The notes under the pieces: generated by a model
Told to the model about the DNA's origin: nothing
The model's input: only the letters and a program-made list of their open reading frames with translations
Databases searched by the model: none
Made by a program: the position numbers and the translations under genes
Shown here: positions 12,638-26,291 of the stretch, piece by piece
How the letters are laid out: every line of letters begins with the position of its first letter
Position numbering within the stretch: position 1 is the stretch's first letter
NCBI RefSeq assembly: GCF_000367945.1
Contig: NZ_KB849179.1
Span: 788,446 to 852,445 of the forward strand
DNA length: 64,000 bases
Direction of reading: 5' to 3'
Source of the DNA: Acinetobacter proteolyticus
GTDB lineage: Bacteria; Pseudomonadota; Gammaproteobacteria; Pseudomonadales; Moraxellaceae

Positions 12638-14866
12638 CTAAACCATTGCAGGGTCACTGACCGAATCTTGCCCTGTTTCAACACGACCTGCAAAGCGACG
12701 ATAGAATTTGGATTCCTGTGTGCAGGTTACTGCGAAGTCATACCATTGTCCCGTATCATTCAAGTCCCAGTGTTGAGTAGAATTTTGTCCAGCTTTCACG
12801 GTGATTTTGAGTGGTGGGTCAGTACGATAAACCACGGGGCTAATCACCAATTCAATATCCTTTGTTCCTGTGTTTTTGAGATCGACATACACATTGCCGT
12901 TGGCAATATCATAACAAACACGAATCTCAGGATTGATTTGCAAATCTTGATTACGATTCAGATCACCCTTGAAATGTCGATGAAAGCCATTCGGCCCCAT
13001 CACCCAAAGATCGTATAAGCCTTGATTGTCTTTCTGCACATTCCAGACATCATCGAGTGTTTTTCCTGCCTCTACAATGTAGCGGCGTGGAATTCGATTT
13101 AAATTTAAGGAGTCATAGACATGAAAGACGGCACCTTGTGTCCCTGTATTTGAGAATAGCAGTTTGACTGTTCCATCATTTAGGCAGCGTGCACTGGTAT
13201 GGAGTTCATAAGGCAGCGCTTTGGAACGACGGATACCGCTGGCTTGAATTGGCAGTTGTAAATTGTTTGGAATAGGGACATGGGGTAACTTTTGCTGTGA
13301 GTTACGCAATTGATCTGCTTGCGCACGACTTTGTTTGCCGTTGAGTTCTGGTAGTACATCCTCATTCGGGTTTTTAAAGTTGAATGCTGAGGTCAAATCT
13401 CCACACACCGCACGGCGATAAGGACTGATATTGCTTTCTTTAACGCCGAAACGTTTTTCAAGGAACATCAATACCGATGTATGATCAAATACTTGAGAGT
13501 TAACAATCCCCCCACGACTCCAAGGCGAAATTACAAAAAGGGGAACACGAGGCCCGGGACCATAAACACCATTGTCTTTTTTAGGTTGGCTGGTACTGCC
13601 TAATGGTGCATCATGCACATAATATTCATGGCGCATATCTGCTTGGCTTAGCGTTGATTTACCTGCATAAGTATTATCCGCTTGCAAGGTCGGTGCTGAT
13701 GGCGATGGAACATGGTCAAAATAACCATCATTTTCATCAAAATTGATCAGGAATACGGTTTTGCTCCACACTTCAGGCACTGCTGTTAACGCATCTAATA
13801 TTTCTTGAATAAACCAAGAGCCCTGAACAGGGCTTGATGGGCCTGGATGTTCACAATAAATTGAAGGGGCATTGATCCAAGACACCTGAGGCAATTTGCC
13901 AGTTTTGATGTCATTTTTAAACGCATTTAAGAATTCTTCTGGGGAGTTACCTGGCAAGGTATTGGCGATGCCTTTATATAGTGGATTGTTGGCATTATCG
14001 GTTGTTGCATCATAGGCTTTGTAAGGCAGCTTTTGCGCGGCCTTGTAATAAGGACTATTGGGTGCGCCACCACTGGAAACCGGATAGCCCGACTCGATAT
14101 TGGCTTTTCTGAACGTACGGAATGCACCTAACATGTTATCACCCCATTCATCAGGCATATTTTGATAACAAATCCAGTTAATTCCAGCTTCTTCTAGACG
14201 TTCCGCATAGGTTTTCCATGTATAACCAACATCAACCGTTTTGGGATCTCCATCAATCCAGTCCCATTCATTATTCACAAATGCGGTACTGGTTGGGACT
14301 GCACCATTGGTTCCTGTTAAATGGAACGAACGATTGGCATCTGTCCCTGTATGCATGGAACAATGATAGGCATCACAAATTGTAAACGCATTAGCCAGGG
14401 CAAATTGGTAAGGAATTTCCTGTTCCTTAAAATAACCCATGGCATAATCTGTTTTATAGGTTGGCCAGTTGGACATACGGCCATTGTCCCATGCTTTTTG
14501 GCTATCCACCCAAGTATGGTTGGTACCGGGTGCACGTTGCGCGTTATTGCTTGAGCCATCTAAATGGAATGGGGTTAACAGTGCGCCATTACTGCGTTGT
14601 TGCTGCCAAACTGTGCGACCATTAGGTAAAGGAATGGTAAGGCGATCAGCAAAGCCCCGAACACCTTTTAAAGTTCCAAAATAATGGTCAAATGAGCGAT
14701 TTTCCTGCATAAGGATCACCACATGCTCAACATCTTGGATGGTTCCTGTTTTATTGTTGGCTGGAATTGCTAATGCTTTTTGAATACTTGCTGGAAAAGT
14801 TGTTAAAGCGGCAGCACCAAAACCTGTTTTAAGTGTGTTTGCTAAAAATTGACGACGATTAATCAC
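12638..14866 (-). CDS. plcN: Phosphocholine-specific phospholipase C, Tat-exported
   Basis: A secreted phospholipase C of the bacterial acid-phosphatase-like family that cleaves phosphatidylcholine. 742 residues. A twin-arginine signal is visible at the N terminus (MINRRQFLANTLKTGFGAAA), so it is exported folded. The catalytic N-terminal part includes HVVILMQENRSFDHYFGTL, CSMHTGTDANRS, NFDENDGYFDHVPSP and SPWSRGGIVNSQVFDHTS. Two C-terminal repeats of the DUF756 type follow (about residues 530-735). Sometimes linked to virulence or phosphate scavenging in Pseudomonas and Acinetobacter. A small lipoprotein gene precedes it. Which of the PlcN or PlcH types it is cannot be settled by eye. Confidence 0.88.
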   Translation of the reverse strand: MINRRQFLANTLKTGFGAAALTTFPASIQKALAIPANNKTGTIQDVEHVVILMQENRSFDHYFGTLKGVRGFADRLTIPLPNGRTVWQQQRSNGALLTPFHLDGSSNNAQRAPGTNHTWVDSQKAWDNGRMSNWPTYKTDYAMGYFKEQEIPYQFALANAFTICDAYHCSMHTGTDANRSFHLTGTNGAVPTSTAFVNNEWDWIDGDPKTVDVGYTWKTYAERLEEAGINWICYQNMPDEWGDNMLGAFRTFRKANIESGYPVSSGGAPNSPYYKAAQKLPYKAYDATTDNANNPLYKGIANTLPGNSPEEFLNAFKNDIKTGKLPQVSWINAPSIYCEHPGPSSPVQGSWFIQEILDALTAVPEVWSKTVFLINFDENDGYFDHVPSPSAPTLQADNTYAGKSTLSQADMRHEYYVHDAPLGSTSQPKKDNGVYGPGPRVPLFVISPWSRGGIVNSQVFDHTSVLMFLEKRFGVKESNISPYRRAVCGDLTSAFNFKNPNEDVLPELNGKQSRAQADQLRNSQQKLPHVPIPNNLQLPIQASGIRRSKALPYELHTSARCLNDGTVKLLFSNTGTQGAVFHVYDSLNLNRIPRRYIVEAGKTLDDVWNVQKDNQGLYDLWVMGPNGFHRHFKGDLNRNQDLQINPEIRVCYDIANGNVYVDLKNTGTKDIELVISPVVYRTDPPLKITVKAGQNSTQHWDLNDTGQWYDFAVTCTQESKFYRRFAGRVETGQDSVSDPAMV

Positions 14867-16084: not shown

Positions 16085-17110
16085 ATGAATCCAGAACTAC
16101 CCGGAAGTTACGTCAATCTTTTGGTTGATCTTATCCAAAAATGGGGGATTCCTTCAGAACAACTCTTGGCAGGCACCGGAATTTCCAAACAAACCTTAAC
16201 AGCGCCATTTTGGTATGTCGACTTTAATATTTTTAATCATTTATTAGAACGAGCGGCTTTGCTGACAAATGAAGCTGCAATTAGTTTATATCTTGCCGAA
16301 GAGATGAAAGTGTCTTGTTATGGGCATGTGGGGATTGCGGCAACGGCTTCTGAAACCTTGGGAGAGGCGATTGCAGTGCTGGAGCAATTTATTGGCTTAC
16401 ATTGTTCTGTGTTTAAACCTAAACTCAAAATTGATGGGGAGATGGCGTATTTAGACTTTGATCAGCCATCACCAAAGTTTAAGTTGAATCGACACGGCAT
16501 GATGTTTTTGATTTTAGGTTTTTCGCAAATTTTGGAAAACTTGGCCCAAGATAAACTTGGAATCTGTTTTCAGTTCCAACAAGACAAACCTGATTTTTAT
16601 AAAAACACTCAAAAATTTAATGAAAAGAATATGCGCTTTAATGGGGAGAAGGACTGCCTGATCTTTAACAAAGCGGCTTTATCACTTCCCTTAAAGAGTG
16701 CAGATGCGCTATTGGCACGTTTAAGCAAGCAACAATGTGAACAAGATGCTGCTAAGCTTGCGCTGAAAAGGGATCAAAAAGACCGTTTAGACTTGCAGGT
16801 CAAAGTGCTACTCTATGACGAACATCAGGGTTTCTTATCATTAAAACAGGTTGCGACGAAGCTCCATCTTTCCGAACGCACTTTACAGCGTCAATTAAAC
16901 AGCAAACAAACTTCTTTTCAAATTCTTGTCGCTGAAGTACGCCGCAAACAAGCCGAACATCTATTAAAACAACCCAAACTTTCGATTGAGCAGATTGCTG
17001 AACGTTTGGGCTATGCCGATATTTCTCATTTTTCACGGGCATTTAAGAAGTGGACCAATGTTACACCTAAGTTTTATCGTGAAGTCAGCATTGGTCATGC
17101 TTCGCTTTAA
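16085..17110 (+). CDS. AraC family regulator with arabinose-binding-type N domain
   Basis: A 341-residue regulator. The N-terminal domain (about residues 1-190) is of the OruR/Arabinose_bd type (GYVNLL-like start, SYGHVGIAATASETLGEA region). The C terminus has the two AraC helix-turn-helix motifs: SLKQVATKLHLSERTLQRQL and SIEQIAERLGYADISHFSRA, ending FKKWTNVTPKFYR. Divergent from the quinone reductase gene and convergent with the ynb-like operon (3-bp gap). Its effector is unknown. Confidence 0.9.
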   Translation: MNPELPGSYVNLLVDLIQKWGIPSEQLLAGTGISKQTLTAPFWYVDFNIFNHLLERAALLTNEAAISLYLAEEMKVSCYGHVGIAATASETLGEAIAVLEQFIGLHCSVFKPKLKIDGEMAYLDFDQPSPKFKLNRHGMMFLILGFSQILENLAQDKLGICFQFQQDKPDFYKNTQKFNEKNMRFNGEKDCLIFNKAALSLPLKSADALLARLSKQQCEQDAAKLALKRDQKDRLDLQVKVLLYDEHQGFLSLKQVATKLHLSERTLQRQLNSKQTSFQILVAEVRRKQAEHLLKQPKLSIEQIAERLGYADISHFSRAFKKWTNVTPKFYREVSIGHASL

Positions 17111-17113
17111 GGC

Positions 17114-18058
17114 TTAGCTCCACCAATAGCGTAGAATGTGGAAGAAGATTGGTGCAGAGAAACAAATAGAGTCGATGCGATCTAACATACCGCCATGACC
17201 TTGAATCAATTGTCCCCAATCTTTTACGCCACGGTCACGTTTGATCGCAGACATGACTAGTCCACCAAAGAAGCCAAAGATACAGACAATTAAACCAATC
17301 AACGCCGCTTGCCAGTAACTAAATGGGGTCAATGCCGACATCAACACACCCAGCGCTGTTGCCAAAATGATGCCACCTAGCAATCCTTCAACTGTTTTTG
17401 AAGGGGAAAGTGTAGGGGCTACTTTATGTTTTCCAAAGAGTTTGCCGCAGACATATTGCAGCACATCCGAGGCTTGAACCACCATAATCAGCCAAATCGC
17501 CAACCAAATTTTTTCCCCTTTAAATTGGGGTAAATCTAGGTTTAACAGGGCAGGGACATGAGAGATACAGAATACGCTGACCATTAAACCCCATTGGATT
17601 TTGGCGCTGCGTTCTAAAAAGTGTGTGGTATCTTCCAGCTTTAAACTGGCAATTGGAATCAGTAAGAATACATACAACGGAATGAAAATCGAAAATAGTC
17701 CGTACCAATTGGTATAGACCAAATAGTATTGATAGGGAATAACGAAGTAGAACGCGATCAGTAAAGGTAGATAATCGCCACGACGTGTTGGTAATAAACT
17801 AATAAATTCACGTAGTGCAAAAAAGGAAATAAGACCAAACAGGACAATAAAAGCAGTTTTGCCCAATAGAATGGCGGCTGCCAAGACAATCAGCATGATC
17901 CACCACGCATTGATACGCGCATTTAAATTATCAATCACTGGGGATGGAGTTATGCCTGCTTTCTGTTTGAGGATAAATCCAATACTTGAGGCAATAATCA
18001 AAATCACGGCAAAGATGCCAAACAATAAATAAGTTTGTTGTAAGTTGTCTAAACTCAT
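17114..18058 (-). CDS. CdsA-like CDP-diacylglycerol synthase, YnbB-like
   Basis: A 314-residue integral membrane protein that transfers CMP from CTP to phosphatidic acid. The full CdsA signature is present near the C terminus: SAIKRDRGVKDWGQ followed by GHGGMLDRIDS. SPSKTVEGLLGG is also typical. About eight hydrophobic segments. It is the last gene of the minus-strand lipid operon and overlaps the acyltransferase gene by 4 bp. A housekeeping cdsA normally lies next to uppS, so this should be the paralogue equivalent to E. coli YnbB. Its dedicated use for an unusual lipid is inferred from context. Confidence 0.88.
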   Translation of the reverse strand: MSLDNLQQTYLLFGIFAVILIIASSIGFILKQKAGITPSPVIDNLNARINAWWIMLIVLAAAILLGKTAFIVLFGLISFFALREFISLLPTRRGDYLPLLIAFYFVIPYQYYLVYTNWYGLFSIFIPLYVFLLIPIASLKLEDTTHFLERSAKIQWGLMVSVFCISHVPALLNLDLPQFKGEKIWLAIWLIMVVQASDVLQYVCGKLFGKHKVAPTLSPSKTVEGLLGGIILATALGVLMSALTPFSYWQAALIGLIVCIFGFFGGLVMSAIKRDRGVKDWGQLIQGHGGMLDRIDSICFSAPIFFHILRYWWS

Positions 18059-18705
18059 TGATTCTCGGCCTCTTTTAATTTTAATAATTGCTGCTGAGCA
18101 TGTTGTAAAAACTGTTGCTTATCTGAGAATTGATCGAGGACTAAAGGTTCGCCAAAAATGACCGTTGAAAGTAGTGGTAAAGGAATAAAGGCACCTTTAG
18201 GCATTACTCGTTTTAAATTAGAAATCCAGACAGGTACCACTTCAACGTGGGGGAACTGTTGGCTGAGGTGATACAGACCACTTTTAAATTCAAGGAGTTC
18301 AATATCATCATTTAAGTTACGTGTTCCTTCAGGGAAGAAAATAATGGAATAGCCTTCAGCTAAGACATCTTTAACTGGCTGTAAGGGATCTTGCTGATCA
18401 CTACGATTACGTTGAATGGTCACACCCGAAAAGGTATCTTGAATTAGAAAGCGTCGAAACCCATCTTTCAGCCAATAATCTGAAGCTGCGATTGGCCGAG
18501 TTTGTCGGCGAATATGAATGGGTAAGGAAGACCATAATAGAATGAAATCGATATGACTATTGTGGTTGGCATAGTAGATACGCTGTTTAAGTTCTGGCTC
18601 ACAACCAACCCATAAACTTCTTGCACCCGTTAATAAGCGAGCGCCTCGACGGGTAAAAAATGCGATAAAACGAGCAACGGATTGCGTGATTATATTTTTC
18701 TTCAT
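18055..18705 (-). CDS. PlsC-type lysophospholipid acyltransferase
   Basis: A 216-residue acyltransferase with the two catalytic blocks of the family: NHNSHIDFIL (H-x4-D) and FFPEGTRNLND. The usual action is acylating a lysophospholipid at the inner membrane. It lies inside the ynb-like operon with a 4-bp overlap to the CdsA-like gene and 7 bp after the small membrane protein gene. E. coli ynbABCD has no such gene, as far as I recall, so this is an added function: it could make the phosphatidic acid used by its neighbour or remodel the end product. Confidence 0.87.
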   Translation of the reverse strand: MKKNIITQSVARFIAFFTRRGARLLTGARSLWVGCEPELKQRIYYANHNSHIDFILLWSSLPIHIRRQTRPIAASDYWLKDGFRRFLIQDTFSGVTIQRNRSDQQDPLQPVKDVLAEGYSIIFFPEGTRNLNDDIELLEFKSGLYHLSQQFPHVEVVPVWISNLKRVMPKGAFIPLPLLSTVIFGEPLVLDQFSDKQQFLQHAQQQLLKLKEAENQ

Positions 18706-18712
18706 TCAACTT

Positions 18713-19135
18713 TCATCTATGCGCTAATTTATAAAACAGTATGATGAATACAGCATATTGTAGTAAGACGATGGTGATCTGTATTTTTAACAGTCTTAAG
18801 CAGCCTTTGAAGCGTATCGACCAATCACGACCCGTTTTACTGGATGGAATCAGTTTCAAGTTTAACAGCGATTGATCGAATTGTTGGGTAAGACTGTTTA
18901 TATCCTCTGGTTGATCAACCATATGCTGTAACAGGCCACGATCAAATTCAATTCGAATAAATAGATAATGGTGAATCGCCAATAGAGCAGTGACCAGTAA
19001 CAGTGGGATTAAGATTGGGATACTTGAAAATAAAAATAAGCTCACAATTGATAAAACAAAGGCTAAATATCCTGATTTTAAAAGAGTCTGACTTTGCTTT
19101 AGCAGTTGGCTCACTACAACAAAATTCATTTTCAT
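18713..19135 (-). CDS. Small membrane protein of the ynb-like lipid operon
   Basis: A 140-residue protein I cannot assign to a family. Hydrophobic segments lie at about residues 24-57 (two helices, AFVLSIVSLFLFSSIPILI and LLLVTALLAIHHYLFI) and 117-137 (IQITIVLLQYAVFIILFYK). A polar stretch between them includes DRGLLQHMVDQPEDINSL. It overlaps the phosphatase gene upstream by 4 bp and is followed 7 bp later by the acyltransferase, so it belongs to the operon. It could be a membrane scaffold or accessory subunit; nothing in the sequence names a reaction. Confidence 0.7.
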   Translation of the reverse strand: MKMNFVVVSQLLKQSQTLLKSGYLAFVLSIVSLFLFSSIPILIPLLLVTALLAIHHYLFIRIEFDRGLLQHMVDQPEDINSLTQQFDQSLLNLKLIPSSKTGRDWSIRFKGCLRLLKIQITIVLLQYAVFIILFYKLAHR

Positions 19136-20502
19136 GGCTGTATCTCCTGAGAGATCAACTGTTGGAAACGTTTAATTTCGGCAATATGTGTCTCGTTTAA
19201 AACAATCCAAGGACGAGATCGTTGGATTAAGGCAATCGCTTCTTCTGCGCTAGCCACATGGTTTTGCTGCAATAACCATGCGATCAATATACTACAGCTA
19301 CGTGAGTAACCGAGCGCACAGAAAATCAGTATTTTTTGTTGTTCACGACTATCTATAACAGGTTGAATAAAACCATCGAATGCTGCTGCGGCGACCAATA
19401 ATTGCTGGCTTTGGACAGGGATTAAATCGAGTGTACTAAATTTTTCATAGTGTTGTACCTGTTGATTTACCGCTAACTCAGCACAGCAATCAAATAAGGC
19501 ATTGTATTGTTTGCTATGTTCAGCAGATGGAATACGACCAAGATAAAGATCCACGCCGTTGAGTTGTAGAATCAGAGAATCTTGTGGATGACGATGGGTC
19601 CATAATCGACTATTCAGCCTTGCCACTAGAAAATAAGGGGCTAATAACAACCATGCAGCAACTGTCATTTGACCATTTAGTTGTTTTTGAAAAAAGTGTG
19701 GTCGAACTGTGAAATAAGCCAATGCAACTAGCAATAAGCTAATGGCTGGATATAGCATCCATAACCAAGCGCCTTTAAAGAAAAATGCAGGTACAAGACA
19801 CAAGAAGGCACCTATGAGATAAAAACACCCTAATTTAAAATGTTTGCCTGTAATTTGCTGTAAGCCATCTTTTTGATAAGGTACTTTCACTGTAAGTGGA
19901 AATAGCCATAAACATAGTCCACCTGCCAATAAACCTAATGGAATATCAATAAAATGATGCTGCCATGTAGTCAAGACAGAAAGTCCGATCAGGAACGACC
20001 AAACATGAACTAGCCAACGGTAATTGGCATTGATATGCCTGCGATAAAAATCCCACAGAATAACCAATAAAACGATGTGTAAGGATGGTGCTTGATTAAA
20101 GGGTTTATCAAAGCCCATGAGCACATCAAACCACAATCCAAAGAAACCATCTAATTCAGTACGTTCAAAACTAAACTTTAATGGATAAATTAAAAAGCAA
20201 CTGATCGAAATAAGTTGGGCGAAAAATAGCCTAAGTGAATGTTGTTTTAATTCAAATTTATTCCAACATAATAGCAAAGATAAACCATAGAAAAGATCAA
20301 TCGACCAATACGGCACAATGGTCCATGGCCAAAGCGGGATATGATTCTCCCATTCAAACACAATACTCGGCACATTGCTGAGGCTAGATGCATATTGGTT
20401 TGCAAAACCATAGGTTAAGAAGAAAAATGGGGCTAAAAAGACTAAGCAGAGTAGCCCCCATTTCCAAGTACCAGGCTGGCGATTTAAAATATTATTTTGC
20501 AT
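19132..20502 (-). CDS. PAP2 and dual-specificity phosphatase fusion, YnbD-like
   Basis: A 456-residue membrane protein fusing two phosphatase types. Residues 1-300 hold membrane helices with PAP2-like elements (DKPFNQAPSLHIVLL and HHFIDIPLGLLAGG). The C-terminal 150 residues are a tyrosine/dual-specificity phosphatase with the C-x5-R loop CALGYSRSCSILIAWLL (Cys and Arg present). The same architecture is what I recall for E. coli YnbD. Such a protein could dephosphorylate a phosphatidyl-alcohol phosphate, much as PAP2 and PTPMT1 enzymes do for PGP. Overlaps the next gene by 4 bp. Confidence 0.85.
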   Translation of the reverse strand: MQNNILNRQPGTWKWGLLCLVFLAPFFFLTYGFANQYASSLSNVPSIVFEWENHIPLWPWTIVPYWSIDLFYGLSLLLCWNKFELKQHSLRLFFAQLISISCFLIYPLKFSFERTELDGFFGLWFDVLMGFDKPFNQAPSLHIVLLVILWDFYRRHINANYRWLVHVWSFLIGLSVLTTWQHHFIDIPLGLLAGGLCLWLFPLTVKVPYQKDGLQQITGKHFKLGCFYLIGAFLCLVPAFFFKGAWLWMLYPAISLLLVALAYFTVRPHFFQKQLNGQMTVAAWLLLAPYFLVARLNSRLWTHRHPQDSLILQLNGVDLYLGRIPSAEHSKQYNALFDCCAELAVNQQVQHYEKFSTLDLIPVQSQQLLVAAAAFDGFIQPVIDSREQQKILIFCALGYSRSCSILIAWLLQQNHVASAEEAIALIQRSRPWIVLNETHIAEIKRFQQLISQEIQP

Positions 20503-20514
20503 AAAGGTCTTTAT

Positions 20515-22263
20515 TTAAATTTTTTGAGCAACTGAAACTGTAAAAATCCCAAATTCATCAATACATTGATCTACTTTTTTAAAGCCAGCTTGTTCAACCA
20601 GTGCATCCATTTCGGCTTGTGAGCGTAAACGCATGACCCAAGCATCACCTTGACGATGTGAGGTAAGTGCACGTGCAATAAACTCTTGTTGTGGGTGCCA
20701 AATTTGTCCCGTGTAAATCAGGAAGCCACCTTGTAGCATGGCTTGATGAATACCTGTGAGTGATTGTCTTAATAAGTCATTATCACTAAACAACTCATAA
20801 AGCCCAGAAACAATGACTAGATTTGGCTTGGGTTTAATTTTGGCCAATGACGCCGTGTCAAAGGCATCACCGAGTTCAAATTGAGCAATATTTTCCAGTT
20901 TTCGTTCTTGGATCAATGCCGAACCAGAATCAACATTTAATTCACTATAATCTCTTAGTAAGACGGATTTCGGCGGTGTTGGAAGCTGACTGACTGCATC
21001 TAAAATATAGCGGCCATGACCTGCAGCAATATCCAGAATTCGAATGTCTTTACGTTGCTTATTCAGAACCTGTGCATATTTCGCCAATAGCTGCTCAATA
21101 TGCTGTTTACGCACGCGGATGCCACGCCAACCAATCGCATTTAAATACTGTTGATCAATGATATTGCCAAGAATGTTTTTGCTTTCACCTTGATTTCGAT
21201 AGACAAAATCTAGCGTACTACCAGAATCATAACCGGTATCTTCACCAATTTTAAGGCCGTGGGAGAATTTACTGCCGAGTTTTAAATTACGTTTGGTTAA
21301 GTTCCAGAACAAATTCTTGATTGAAGAAGCGGGAAGTGGACTACTCAATTGCTCAGCCGTTGCACAGCTTGAACCAATTTTATCGGCATTGAGTACATCT
21401 GGTGCCTGATAATCTTCAGCAAAGCTTTGCAAGATAAAACGGCGGATTTTTTCGATTGCAATATGACGATCTTTTTCACCTAAAGTATCGTGATAAAAAC
21501 CATCTAAAACGTGAAATTCTTTACGTGGATGAGGAAGCTTTTCATAAAATTGTTGTTGTGGTTTACGGAACACCACAAAATCTGATCCAGAGCATAAAAC
21601 TTGTGTGGGAACAAAGATATTTTGTGCATCATTGACGATACGTTCAGATGCTGCATATAAGCCCAAAAGCATTCGTACAGAAATGGCTTTGGCAATTTGT
21701 GGATCTGTATCATAAGTTTTTGCGCGCCCGACATCATGTGTCAGCATATTGGCTTTTACATAACTGGTAATAAAGAAATTACCTTTGAGTTTGCTTAAAA
21801 CAGTTAAACCTGCTTTTGCAAATGGTACATACAGTTTGATATCAAATGCGGGTGAAGCTAAGCATAAAGCTCTGATTTTTGGTGCATAATCATGTACCCA
21901 TGTGGCTGCTAAAACTGCACCGACACTTTGACCAATGACGGCGATATTGGTTGATACAATGTTATACGTCGATTCAACATGTTGTACAAAAGATTGAATA
22001 TCTTTCACACATGCAGAGAAACTTGGTGCATCGCCACGTAAACCTGGTGAATCTCCATGTCCGCGTGCATCCCACGCAAAGAAATCAAATTCTGGTAGGT
22101 TAAGCTCATTGACCAAATGCGCCATACGTCCAGAGTGTTCATGACCACGATGGAATAAGATAATTGCTTTTTTTGTCTCTTTTTCTGCAGTTGCTGGCCA
22201 ATGTTGATAGGCTAATTGAGTCTCATCATGACTGGTAAATACATGTTTTTGTGAGCTTTGCAT
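20515..22263 (-). CDS. Alpha/beta hydrolase and SAM methyltransferase fusion, YnbC-like
   Basis: A 582-residue two-domain protein. The N-terminal alpha/beta hydrolase (about 1-280) has RGHEHSGR, the Asp-rich DARGHGDSPG and the nucleophile elbow GQSVGA, with GSDFVV and FYHDTLGE supplying the acid/base region. The C-terminal class I methyltransferase (about 330-580) has motif I ILDIAAGHGRYILD and NLVIVSGLYELF. The layout equals that recalled for E. coli YnbC. The fusion suggests that acyl or ester hydrolysis and methylation act on the same lipid. Cytosolic, with no signal peptide. Eleven bases downstream of the CDP-alcohol transferase gene. Confidence 0.86.
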   Translation of the reverse strand: MQSSQKHVFTSHDETQLAYQHWPATAEKETKKAIILFHRGHEHSGRMAHLVNELNLPEFDFFAWDARGHGDSPGLRGDAPSFSACVKDIQSFVQHVESTYNIVSTNIAVIGQSVGAVLAATWVHDYAPKIRALCLASPAFDIKLYVPFAKAGLTVLSKLKGNFFITSYVKANMLTHDVGRAKTYDTDPQIAKAISVRMLLGLYAASERIVNDAQNIFVPTQVLCSGSDFVVFRKPQQQFYEKLPHPRKEFHVLDGFYHDTLGEKDRHIAIEKIRRFILQSFAEDYQAPDVLNADKIGSSCATAEQLSSPLPASSIKNLFWNLTKRNLKLGSKFSHGLKIGEDTGYDSGSTLDFVYRNQGESKNILGNIIDQQYLNAIGWRGIRVRKQHIEQLLAKYAQVLNKQRKDIRILDIAAGHGRYILDAVSQLPTPPKSVLLRDYSELNVDSGSALIQERKLENIAQFELGDAFDTASLAKIKPKPNLVIVSGLYELFSDNDLLRQSLTGIHQAMLQGGFLIYTGQIWHPQQEFIARALTSHRQGDAWVMRLRSQAEMDALVEQAGFKKVDQCIDEFGIFTVSVAQKI

Positions 22264-22273
22264 TTGATTTTCC

Positions 22274-22909
22274 TTAAAGTTGAATACTATTTTTAATACG
22301 GTTATAAGTTGTCAAAACCAATAGTGCTGCAATAAAAATAAGCAGCCCGTTACAGATGTAAGTAATTGAATTTGTGTAGTTATTTTTAACTAAATACGGA
22401 CTAAAACTGACAAGCACAGCAATTAAACTAAACCAAAATGCACGGTCGCTTTTACCCATGGGACCATCATAACGACGTTCCTGACCAATTAAAGGTGCCA
22501 TAACTCCAGCATATTCACTCAGAACTGCCAGAAAAACAACCAAACCTAATAAATAGGAATTAATGAAGACTAAGCCTAAAAAACATAAATACAGCGCAGA
22601 ATCAGAGATGACATCACAAATTTCATTTAAATATGCGCCAAGTTTTGATTGTTGATTAAACTCACGCGCGAGCATGCCATCAATTGCATTAAAACCCATA
22701 CGAACCAACATCCATACAGGAAATAGTAAAAATAGAATCAAAGGTTGCTGGTAAAGATGCAGGCAGTAAAGTGCAACGGCTAATACAACAGAGATAAACA
22801 TGGCTAAGAGCGTAACTTGATTCGCCGTGATTTTTTTAGCGTAAAGCCATTGTACAAATGGGCGAAGTAAATTCTGAAATGCTGGTTTTAATTGATAAAT
22901 CGAAGGCAT
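22274..22909 (-). CDS. CDP-alcohol phosphatidyltransferase, YnbA-like
   Basis: First gene of the lipid operon, about 211 residues from the ATG at 22909 (MPSIYQLKPAFQNLL); a start six codons earlier at 22927 is also possible. It exchanges CMP of a CDP-lipid for an alcohol. The motif reads NAIDGMLAR, eight residues, then GAYLNEICD. Compared with the family consensus D-x2-D-G-x2-A-R-x8-G-x3-D-x3-D, the first and third Asp are Asn. YnbA of E. coli, as recalled, has the same Asn pattern. About five or six membrane helices. The alcohol substrate is unknown. Confidence 0.85.
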   Translation of the reverse strand: MPSIYQLKPAFQNLLRPFVQWLYAKKITANQVTLLAMFISVVLAVALYCLHLYQQPLILFLLFPVWMLVRMGFNAIDGMLAREFNQQSKLGAYLNEICDVISDSALYLCFLGLVFINSYLLGLVVFLAVLSEYAGVMAPLIGQERRYDGPMGKSDRAFWFSLIAVLVSFSPYLVKNNYTNSITYICNGLLIFIAALLVLTTYNRIKNSIQL

Positions 22910-23084
22910 TGTTATTGGTATAAACACATTTATATAGTGAAAGCATTGTGTTTAATATTTAGGTGCATGTCAACATACATCAAGATTCGAGGGAAAATAG
23001 TGATTATAAAAGTCTTTACAGATCATATTATTAATATTAACCTATTTCGCATAATGTATATTATGTTAAATAGGATATCTAGGA

Positions 23085-23882: not shown

Positions 23883-24497
23883 TTATAGCTCTAATAAAGG
23901 TGGTAATTCCCTTCTTGCAATCTCATAGGCTTCATCACGCTCTATGCCCATTGCATATAGCAATAGCTCAGCAATTTCAGTACCTGCATCTCTCCAAGTT
24001 TTATGTCCTTCTAATACGAGAAAAATAGATGTTAAAACTGAACCTGCAATCAAAGACATGATGGAAAGTAGTTGATCTTCTCGGAATGTATATCGTTTAC
24101 TGTCTAAACCGGCCATTACATCAGGCAATGGTGAATCACTACTTGACCATAAGGCCATTAGTGATTTTGAACTAAAAGCAAAGCGGCATATAAATCGTCC
24201 CCAATCTGACTCTTCGTGCGCTCTTCGAACATACATCCGTATCCCCGTGGCAAGACGAATAGCCGCATCAGATTCATCCCCTAGCGTTTTAATAACACGA
24301 GCATTCATTTCTTCCGCGAGTTGAGATGCAATATCTTCAAATAATGTATCTGGATCTAGCTGATTATTATAAATTGTACCTCGAGCCACACCAGATGCTG
24401 AGGCCAGTTCACTTATACTAATATTAGTAGACCCTTTTTCAGCAAATAGTTTTAATGCTGTTTTATGAATTCTTTGCTGTGATGAAGATAAACGCAC
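23883..24497 (-). CDS. TetR family repressor of the catabolic block
   Basis: A 204-residue TetR-type regulator. The N-terminal helix-turn-helix is SISELASASGVARGTIYNN after RIHKTALKLFAEKGSTNI. The C-terminal ligand domain is hydrophobic (SIMSLIAGSVLTSIFLVLEG). GTG start at 24497 with AAGG upstream. Two TTGAACA half-sites lie in its own promoter, and the full dyad TTGAACA-N4-TGTTCAA recurs at the promoters of the meta-cleavage operon, the FadL gene and the amidohydrolase, so it probably regulates itself and those units. The effector is probably a pathway compound. Confidence 0.88.
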   Translation of the reverse strand: MRLSSSQQRIHKTALKLFAEKGSTNISISELASASGVARGTIYNNQLDPDTLFEDIASQLAEEMNARVIKTLGDESDAAIRLATGIRMYVRRAHEESDWGRFICRFAFSSKSLMALWSSSDSPLPDVMAGLDSKRYTFREDQLLSIMSLIAGSVLTSIFLVLEGHKTWRDAGTEIAELLLYAMGIERDEAYEIARRELPPLLEL

Positions 24498-24509
24498 AAT
24501 TTAAACCTT

Positions 24510-24546
24510 TTGAACAAGATTGAAGTATTTGAACAATTTTGACCAT
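24510..24546. promoter_or_regulatory. TetR operator half-sites at its own promoter
   Basis: TTGAACA occurs at 24510-24516 and again at 24529-24535. Each is followed after four bases by a degenerate TGAAGTA or TGACCAT instead of TGTTCAA. They are weaker than the sites at 32764 and 34833, fitting partial autoregulation. Confidence 0.5.
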
Positions 24547-24562
24547 TATTATACAGATTATA

Positions 24563-25420
24563 CTATTCATCAAAGTTTTTTGTGAGTTTCTTCCGTAACC
24601 AACTCCAATTCTGTTTTTTATCAGTTGATCTATATTTTTTCAATTCTGAGATTTGATCTTTAATAGACTGTGCAACCTGCTCACGAATATTCCATATACC
24701 TTGTTCATCGTCCACAACATTCAAAGTAGATATTCGCTCTCCAAAACTAAAGTAAAAACGTTGAGGTTTTGGAATCGGTAAATATCCAACTCCAACAGGA
24801 ATTGGCGGCAAAATATCTCCACCTCTTAACTTATCATTTAGTTTAAATGCTTTAAGAACTTTCTGCGCAGTTGCATTCTGTTGAATATCATTAGCATCTA
24901 TCACAATATCAAAGCAGTCATCTGCTCCAACAGAAGCAAATGGAATAATATCGTAACCATGTTCTATAGCTAAACGAGCAAAACCAGTACGTTTTTTCCA
25001 GATAAGTTGATACTTTTCCCCTTTCCTACGCATAACTTCACGTGCACCACCAGGAAATACAATGATTGACTGCCCACTCTCCATCAGGGCATGACAGTTT
25101 TCTGGCGATCCTAAGACCATACCACCTTTTGTGAGTATATCTTTCCATATTGGAACATTAAAATGCATACGATCCCCTAAAGACCGTAAGTGAATACCAT
25201 GTTGCTCCCGTATGTATTCAACAAACAATGGCACATCTAAAAGGCCATACAAGGTATGATTTCCAACAAATAGCGCAGGTTTTGACATATTAAGTTGATC
25301 CGAGTTTAAAAAGACTGGATCAAAATACCAACGCTCTAAATCACGTCCCCATTTGCCATAGTTTTCTTCTGGGGGTACAAAGTTGTCCATTTTATTCTCC
25401 TCATCAAATTTAGAAGACAT
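24563..25420 (-). CDS. Lysophospholipid acyltransferase-like protein (MGAT-like subfamily)
   Basis: A 285-residue acyltransferase. NHTLYGLLDVP replaces the classic H-x4-D with a longer spacing, and VFPGGAREVMRRKGEKY matches the FPGGxRE block of the monoacylglycerol or diacylglycerol acyltransferase-like group. No signal peptide; possibly membrane-associated. Last structural gene of the meta-cleavage operon, 22 bp after the SDR gene and 65 bp before tetR. Its job in an aromatic pathway is unclear; it might acylate or store a released fatty acid, or alter the membrane against a toxic substrate. Confidence 0.8.
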   Translation of the reverse strand: MSSKFDEENKMDNFVPPEENYGKWGRDLERWYFDPVFLNSDQLNMSKPALFVGNHTLYGLLDVPLFVEYIREQHGIHLRSLGDRMHFNVPIWKDILTKGGMVLGSPENCHALMESGQSIIVFPGGAREVMRRKGEKYQLIWKKRTGFARLAIEHGYDIIPFASVGADDCFDIVIDANDIQQNATAQKVLKAFKLNDKLRGGDILPPIPVGVGYLPIPKPQRFYFSFGERISTLNVVDDEQGIWNIREQVAQSIKDQISELKKYRSTDKKQNWSWLRKKLTKNFDE

Positions 25421-25442
25421 CCCTGTATTCTTAAAACTTGGT

Positions 25443-26291
25443 TTATTGTTTTGCCCAATTTAGGCTTTTTTCCCACAGCTCACTGGCTAAATTAATATTC
25501 TGGGCAGCATGCGAAGAAACTTTGACCTTACAATCTTCGTAATAGAACCCCGTATCGCTAGCAAGCTGAGGTTGGGTAGCACAATAAAGTGTGGTTTTAG
25601 CACCTTCTTCAGGGCTAATCATAAAGCGACTAATGAGCTTAACTAAAGGTTGTGGCAAACCTCGCCAGACATTGGTCGAAACCACACCAGGATGTATTGC
25701 ATAGGCTGTGACACCTGTACCATATAAACGACGACCGAGTTCTTTCACAAAAAGAATATTTGCAAGTTTGGCTGTTGCATATTCTTTTAAACCACCAACA
25801 CTTTTGGTTGATTTCAATACAGCATTGAAATCAATACCTTGTGCATGTCGGTGTGCTTTACTTGCAACCACAATCACGCGTGCAGGTTTTGATTCAATCA
25901 ATTTTTCAGTGAGTAATTGGGTAAGGAGAAAATGTCCGACATGGCAAACACCAAATGTAAGTTCAAAGCCCGATTGTGTCATACCTTTTTGACCGGCCAA
26001 GCCAGCATTGGCAATGAGTAAATGCAATGGTAGATTTCGGGAAAGAAATTGTGCTGCACACTGACGTACAGAATCTAAATTGGCCAGATCCAGCTCAATA
26101 AATTCCGCTTTTGCTCGTCCAAAACTTAAGCTTTGGATTTCCTGAAGTACAGCTTGCGCTTTCTGCTGCGAGCGGCAGGCCAAAAATACATGATAACCTT
26201 GTAATGCCAACTCTCTTGCGGTAACTGCACCGATTCCTGAGTTTGCACCCGTTACTAAAGCCACTTTTCCATTTAATTTAAATTGAGCCAT
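25443..26291 (-). CDS. SDR oxidoreductase (retinol-dehydrogenase-like)
   Basis: A 282-residue short-chain dehydrogenase. Cofactor motif TGANSGIGAVTARELA, the Arg-rich LACRSQQKA (suggests NADP), NAG in IANAGLAG, and the catalytic YATAK. The C terminus is longer than in classical SDRs, similar to retinol dehydrogenase or WWOX-like members. Between the aldolase (4-bp gap) and the acyltransferase, so it is part of the catabolic operon. It may oxidise a side-chain alcohol of the substrate; that is inferred from position only. Confidence 0.85.
   Translation of the reverse strand: MAQFKLNGKVALVTGANSGIGAVTARELALQGYHVFLACRSQQKAQAVLQEIQSLSFGRAKAEFIELDLANLDSVRQCAAQFLSRNLPLHLLIANAGLAGQKGMTQSGFELTFGVCHVGHFLLTQLLTEKLIESKPARVIVVASKAHRHAQGIDFNAVLKSTKSVGGLKEYATAKLANILFVKELGRRLYGTGVTAYAIHPGVVSTNVWRGLPQPLVKLISRFMISPEEGAKTTLYCATQPQLASDTGFYYEDCKVKVSSHAAQNINLASELWEKSLNWAKQ

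Follow-up and report, generated by a model that had tools for sequence, protein, structure and literature searches.

We analysed a stretch of 64,000 nucleotides from Acinetobacter proteolyticus (contig NZ_KB849179.1, positions 788,446 to 852,445 of the forward strand), hereafter the window, which carries a cassette of six open genes on its minus strand, running from position 22909 down to 17114 in the order CPT-HMT-PDSP-SMP-PLSC-CDS. The features of the locus, in window coordinates, are as follows.

22945..22973, minus strand: promoter-like site, TTGACA (22973-22968)-N17-CACAAT (22950-22945), recognized by its conserved hexamers and spacing.
22274..22909, minus strand: CPT, a CDP-alcohol phosphatidyltransferase-like membrane protein, relative of YnbA (Pfam CDP-OH_P_transf, 39 bits against a cut-off of 22).
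20515..22263, minus strand: HMT, a fusion of a monoglyceride-lipase-like hydrolase and an S-adenosylmethionine (SAM) methyltransferase, relative of YnbC (Pfam Hydrolase_4, 227 bits; Methyltransf_20, 486 bits).
19132..20502, minus strand: PDSP, a fusion of a PAP2-like membrane domain and a dual-specificity phosphatase (DSP), relative of YnbD (Pfam DSPc, 53 bits).
18713..19135, minus strand: SMP, a membrane protein of 140 residues and downstream partner of PDSP, without a Pfam family.
18055..18705, minus strand: PLSC, a PlsC-like acyltransferase (Pfam Acyltransferase, 67 bits).
17114..18058, minus strand: CDS, a CdsA-like CDP-diacylglycerol synthase, relative of YnbB (Pfam CTP_transf_1, 245 bits).

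An earlier note, made from the letters of this DNA, had listed the same six genes as tightly packed on the minus strand, and the open frames, the Pfam matches and the spacing agree with it: going downstream, the first two gaps measure 10 and 12 bases, the next pair of genes overlaps by 4 bases, and a gap of 7 bases and another 4-base overlap follow. CPT starts at an ATG, about where the alignments of its relatives begin; an in-frame GTG at 22927 would add six residues, and the CPT residue numbers used below are counted from that GTG. The closest named CPT, from Acinetobacter colistiniresistens, is 95% identical. Both hexamers and the 17-base spacer are unchanged in the window and in all nine aligned sister-species loci, the sequence farther upstream being mostly diverged among these ten, and we infer that TTGACA-N17-CACAAT acts as the promoter. 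Regulation by phosphate was rejected, since a consensus search allowing at most four mismatches found no Pho-box-like site ahead of ynbA or of the operon in the window.

Four of the six proteins are relatives of the products of the E. coli K-12 genes ynbA, ynbB, ynbC and ynbD, a kinship that the note had pointed out and that the identities bear out: 45% between YnbA and CPT, 40% over 275 positions between YnbB and CDS, 51% between YnbC and HMT and 36% between YnbD and PDSP. Relatives of ynbA-D thus lie side by side in the window, in a six-gene set of different order; the E. coli operon runs CPT-CDS-HMT-PDSP, and in K-12 it has neither PLSC nor SMP. Of 5426 complete E. coli genomes, 4242 carry 80% or more of the K-12 operon. 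In strain ET12567 the ynb match (H21, NZ_CP045457.1:1780550-1786468) holds an IS4-like transposase, and the CDP-alcohol protein is annotated there in two pieces. Another enterobacterial genome (G518, locus L188) has CPT (71% identical to YnbA), CDS and PLSC near azoR (89%) and hrpA (96%), the same neighbours that the ynb genes have in E. coli; HMT and PDSP were not found by a profile search of that genome. A Citrobacter IncF plasmid carries CPT-CDS-PLSC-HMT-PDSP together with a 136-residue open reading frame, which the SMP profile does not match.

The gene content of related loci was surveyed twice. In the first survey, genome contigs were searched for CPT and the content of the 66 resulting loci was scored by profile, some loci (e.g. 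L035, L056 and L070) being cut at a flank or contig end. All six genes are present at 32 of them (27 Acinetobacter, two Diaphorobacter, two Wohlfahrtiimonas and one Elusimicrobium metagenome-assembled genome), mostly in the order seen in the window; the laboratory species A. baylyi is among those with all six (L013). The other loci hold CPT, PLSC and CDS only (12/66), CPT, HMT, PDSP and CDS (10/66; Massilia, Duganella and kin), CPT, HMT, PLSC and CDS (5/66; Campylobacteraceae metagenome-assembled genomes), CPT, HMT, PDSP and SMP (3/66), CPT and CDS (2/66) or CPT alone (2/66). PLSC and CDS lie nearby on the opposite strand in L036 and L037. At some loci a gene is split over two open frames, PDSP on an A. 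colistiniresistens contig (L005:10427-11797) and HMT in L029 and likewise in L027, and a six-gene locus with a 717-residue open reading frame between HMT and PDSP was also seen (L141:10208-12361). A Fusobacterium record has HMT ahead of CPT and CDS, and in Pseudanabaena a Methyltransf_20 protein without the hydrolase follows the CPT-CDS-PLSC trio.

In the second survey, HMT (PF12147) was searched for in whole genomes, namely 149 of Acinetobacter and 398 of Pseudomonadota, and was found in 39 and 27 of them, respectively. Within the 15-19.5 kb fetched around each of the 26 Pseudomonadota loci besides the window, all six genes occur at 22; two have CPT, HMT, PDSP and SMP, one CPT, HMT, PLSC and CDS, and one CPT and HMT (for L144 and L146, PLSC and CDS were counted inside the fetched locus only). 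The CPT profile scores above 260 bits in 39 of the 149 Acinetobacter genomes, which are identical to those with HMT, three further genomes matching only at 77-82 bits; in the Pseudomonadota it scores above 160 bits in 37 of 398, including all 27 with HMT, and two more match at about 78 bits. Full-length PDSP (above 470 bits) occurs in 26 of the 398, all among the 27 with HMT, with G444 as the HMT genome that lacks it. A further 18 genomes match one half of PDSP only, 13 of them the C-terminal half (at 14 places) and five the PAP2 half (G498, G252, G228, G230 and G370), and HMT is found in none of the 18. The ten CPT genomes without HMT comprise eight with an intact CPT-CDS-PLSC trio, one with broken CPT and CDS pieces and one with CPT alone.

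Presence is therefore nested, 26 genomes within 27 within 37: full-length PDSP occurs only with HMT and HMT only with CPT, so that each depends on the next, and the trio can stand alone. PDSP and SMP are kept together even outside a shared operon, since G352 has the pair at a distance of 43 kb from the remaining four. The co-conservation is far beyond chance, with chance figures that overstate its significance because members of the same genus do not count as independent samples. The earlier note had staked its idea of a joint pathway on co-conservation of the six genes in other genomes, and this holds at 32 of 66 and 22 of 26 loci and in the nested genome counts. The note had also called the window operon an expanded ynb set in which the acyltransferase and the small membrane protein are extra. 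Neither description is borne out, because the six-gene set recurs, as the commonest form found where HMT and PDSP occur, and presence is nested; E. coli holds the smaller set, and L188 has CPT-CDS-PLSC beside azoR and hrpA. The four-gene E. coli version is the unusual one, not the norm.

The active site of CPT deviates from that of its family. CDP-alcohol enzymes share the motif D1xxD2G1xxAR...G2xxxD3xxxD4; in the phosphatidylinositol phosphate (PIP) synthase of Mycobacterium tuberculosis, the four aspartates hold two metal ions, R155 and R195 bind inositol phosphate, and exchange of D4 for Asn nearly abolishes activity with substrate binding retained (PMC6506517, PMC4634129). CPT keeps D2 and D4 and has Asn at D1 (N80) and D3 (N101). 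Both asparagines are present in all 95 proteins that score above 200 bits. A wider set of 110 rows has Asn in 106, Asp in two, Ala in one and a gap in one at D1, and Asn in 107, Asp in two and a gap in one at D3; it counts the window protein twice (as the window and as L004) and, its threshold being low, also takes in two ordinary paralogues (L001 and a second protein of L040) with Asp at both positions. The window genome encodes three additional CDP-alcohol proteins, two of which have Asp at all four positions and the third, by eye, at both sites in question, and the solved relatives of CPT printed in the alignments carry Asp. The E. coli relative has both asparagines, as CPT does (row L071). 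A second, distant clade of seven proteins (75-88 bits; L150-L154, L195 and L196) shows the same two; it adjoins PLSC and CDS in L154 and L195, CDS in L196 and neither in L150-L153. The E. coli protein YnjF, which is likewise of the CDP-alcohol kind, was rejected as a clade member, scoring 24 bits against the CPT profile without matching the motif pattern. Because the two-Asn change is common to distant phyla (Pseudomonadota, Elusimicrobia, Planctomycetota and one cyanobacterium), it looks selected, not decayed. CPT probably functions by way of a modified two-metal site.

As for the acceptor, CPT matches PIP synthase in sequence along the entire profile (6h53, 47 bits) and keeps D2, G1, A, G2, D4 and both arginines: R162 and R210 align by eye with R155 and R195 and are kept in 108 and 106 of the 110 rows, respectively. 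In the ten Massilia/Duganella-type rows the AR motif is without its Arg. It differs from PIP synthase in the asparagines at D1 and D3 and in that the residues aligned with K135 are not basic. Since the two inositol-phosphate arginines are kept, the acceptor would most likely bear a phosphate. One candidate is inositol phosphate, with the DSP domain then yielding phosphatidylinositol; among solved structures, PIP synthases are indeed closest in sequence to the CPT profile, and the best NCBIfam matches of CPT are inositol-type synthases, far under their cut-offs (73 of 180 bits for archaetidylinositol phosphate synthase and 51 of 170 for PIPSynth). The change at K135, the absence of inositol-phosphate synthase (PF07994) from the window's own genome and the absence of E. 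coli from the control genomes matching PF07994 argue against this route, which is disfavoured and, in our judgement, extremely improbable. Because no such synthase was found there, CPT likely accepts some phosphorylated alcohol that is not inositol phosphate.

The two genes that would feed CPT retain their signatures. PLSC has the Acyltransferase domain, and among its 79 relatives above 200 bits NHxSxxD is present in 75 and PEG in 69, the pattern for the latter missing ten; against TIGR00530 it scores 44.6 bits, under the cut-off of 103. In CDS the signature SxxKRxxxxKD...GHGGxxDRxD is visible together with the CTP_transf_1 domain; of the 86 relatives that score above 250 bits, 72 have it, as counted with a consensus relaxed at one position. 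The window genome has one additional CTP_transf_1 gene. YnbB makes CDP-diacylglycerol in vitro (PMC7018664). At five loci (L046, L047, L048, L057 and L059) the core trio adjoins a protein of about 1100-1170 residues with an acyltransferase region, which in L048 has transporter, acyltransferase and AMP-binding (acyl-activating) domains.

Alternatively, CDS and CPT could join CDP-diacylglycerol to a sugar phosphate in a diphosphate-linked glycolipid, like GlcNAc-PP-diacylglycerol, the precursor of the glycolipid MPIase. A phosphate nucleophile would need less base catalysis, which could explain the asparagines, and the acceptor-phosphate arginines are kept; in addition, MPIase rises when YnbB is overproduced (PMC6362211). 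Against this, CPT retains D4, which is the proposed base, and MPIase is reported as about unchanged on loss of ynbB (PMC6362211); we regard a glycolipid as very unlikely. PMC8609368 reports ynbB as unnecessary for the phosphoglyceride-linked enterobacterial common antigen (ECA-PG), which speaks against a glycolipid and led us to reject ECA-PG itself as the product. Phosphatidylcholine was also rejected; an old annotation of YnbA as a cholinephosphotransferase was dropped from EcoCyc on the ground that E. coli lacks this lipid (PMC3781023).

The tailoring genes begin with HMT, whose first half has the predicted fold and the Ser-Asp-His triad of monoglyceride lipases. It differs from such enzymes (Rv0183, human MGLL) in being fused to a Methyltransf_20 domain. 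All 25 aligned HMT proteins agree at the triad and at the SAM-site residues, and the SAM motif pattern missed 14 of 78. The fold-match lists of HMT are filled by lipase rows, and a sequence search with the methyltransferase half gave psoF (E 0.0018), nothing else below 0.1 and no hint of a substrate. The predicted lipase fold bears on a different role for the cassette, in which no new lipid is made and membrane lipid is rebuilt after phospholipase damage: PLSC would re-acylate lyso-lipid, the lipase half clear monoacylglycerol, PDSP handle phosphorylated debris, and CDS with CPT return the carbon. The large neighbour at the five trio loci fits this, the L048 domains being as in lyso-phospholipid re-uptake. 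It leaves the methyltransferase unexplained, as well as a cassette-specific transferase and CDP-diacylglycerol synthase in a genome with a second CdsA-type gene, and we consider salvage rather unlikely.

In PDSP, the C-terminal half has the predicted fold and the CxxxxxR loop of a dual-specificity phosphatase. In fold comparison the phosphatase is tied with PTPMT1, which is known as a phosphatidylglycerol phosphate (PGP) phosphatase and has a basic residue after the Cys. PDSP lacks that residue and, unlike dual-specificity phosphatases including PTPMT1, is fused to a PAP2-like membrane domain. This domain matches PAP2_3 at 19.8 bits, under the cut-off of 27, and is weakly similar in sequence to the PAP2 lipid phosphatase PLPP1 around the third motif (9l0o, E 0.0011). 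PSLH is kept in 71 of 72 proteins and so are the His and Asp of the C3 motif SRxxxxxHxxxD; at the place of its Arg, all 71 of 71 have V, T or I. Fold lists for the whole of PDSP are filled by the DSP domain, and the failure of the PAP2 half to appear there has no bearing on its fold. At two of the 14 places with the C-terminal half alone, the closest scanned relatives, the DSP domain is fused to a diacylglycerol-kinase domain (L211:4569-6230 and L212:5772-7412). SMP has hydrophobic regions at residues 18-48 and 115-133 and no Pfam or NCBIfam match.

The likeness to PTPMT1, together with the acceptor-phosphate arginines of CPT, would suit a second route to phosphatidylglycerol, with CPT making PGP from glycerol-3-phosphate and PDSP dephosphorylating it. 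CPT scores only 23 bits against the pgsA model, whose cut-off is 109. Moreover, YnbD is listed as failing to rescue E. coli that lacks its PGP phosphatases, unlike PgpA, PgpB and PgpC (PMC7413402, Table 2), and strains lacking undecaprenyl diphosphate (C55-PP) phosphatases (PMC7413402). An ordinary phosphatidylglycerol route is likewise disfavoured; we give it very little credence.

Taken together, we find it somewhat probable that the cassette builds its own phospholipid by way of PLSC, CDS and CPT and then tailors it with HMT and PDSP. PLSC would convert a lyso-lipid to phosphatidic acid, CDS would convert this to CDP-diacylglycerol, and CPT would exchange CMP for the alcohol. HMT may then methylate the lipid and remove an acyl chain or clear monoacylglycerol by-product, and the DSP domain may strip the extra phosphate, assisted by SMP. 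The reactions that the note had put forward for the set, from phosphatidic acid through activation and attachment of an alcohol phosphate to dephosphorylation and methylation or deacylation, are plausible. The set would thus be layered, with PLSC, CDS and CPT as a core to which first HMT and then PDSP with SMP are added; this layering is suggested by the occurrence of the core without HMT, in eight of ten HMT-less CPT genomes and at 12 of 66 loci, and by the Pseudanabaena trio, joined by a methyltransferase without the lipase. The invariant HMT residues, the activity of YnbB and the diacylglycerol-kinase fusions of the DSP relatives support this reading, as does the nested presence.

Several observations weigh against this pathway. 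The first is catalytic: in CPT asparagine replaces two of the four catalytic aspartates and in the PAP2 half the C3 arginine is gone, so either reaction may be lost or changed and neither can be read from its family name. The second is genomic: many core loci have no HMT, those of the Campylobacteraceae have no PDSP, and five genomes carry the PAP2 half alone without HMT. The loci without PDSP weaken the step with a phosphorylated acceptor in particular, because they show that a dedicated phosphatase is not always needed. The third is genetic, as YnbB is reported to be unable to replace CdsA and its loss to be nearly silent (PMC6362211). A more far-reaching proposal, possible but doubtful at present, is that the YnbA clade and the second, distant clade, which also occurs beside YnbB-type CdsA and PlsC, form a separate CDP-alcohol clade that works with a two-Asn metal site and makes an undescribed membrane lipid. 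The acceptor group could then be a phosphate instead of a hydroxyl, the lipid would be methylated and edited by HMT and PDSP, and E. coli would keep a reduced version.

Other genes lie close to the cassette. A convergent AraC-family gene (at 16085) is found three bases downstream; it was rejected as a regulator, since within 8 kb flanks it adjoins the cassette at nine of 31 loci, all of them the nine closest relatives, and is not a general partner. A few kb downstream, window positions 12638-14866 encode a phospholipase C specific for phosphocholine, which scores 941 bits with TIGR03396, a model whose cut-off is 580. Upstream, a run of minus-strand genes (23883-26291) is also seen near the cassette in L008 and L010; we take these genes to be a TetR-like gene, a DGAT/PlsC-type acyltransferase and a short-chain dehydrogenase-like gene.

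The earlier note held that the E. coli set has no agreed product, and the open-licence literature that we found is of the same mind: no product assignment for the ynb genes was met in it, which is no proof of absence. The genes do appear there in other connections, which were not used here: ynbA among the insertion hits of a cyclic di-GMP screen, without Sanger confirmation (PMC13031359), and as the sole gene to show a decrease when exposure to plutonium had lasted 15 days (PMC10134817), and ynbC in a list of persistence mutations (PMC13313352). The operon ynbABCD is thus present in most complete E. coli genomes, yet the literature found gives it no agreed product. Perhaps E. coli is a poor place to seek that product, since two of the six genes are missing there; a new lipid, should the product prove to be one, would be spread over several phyla.

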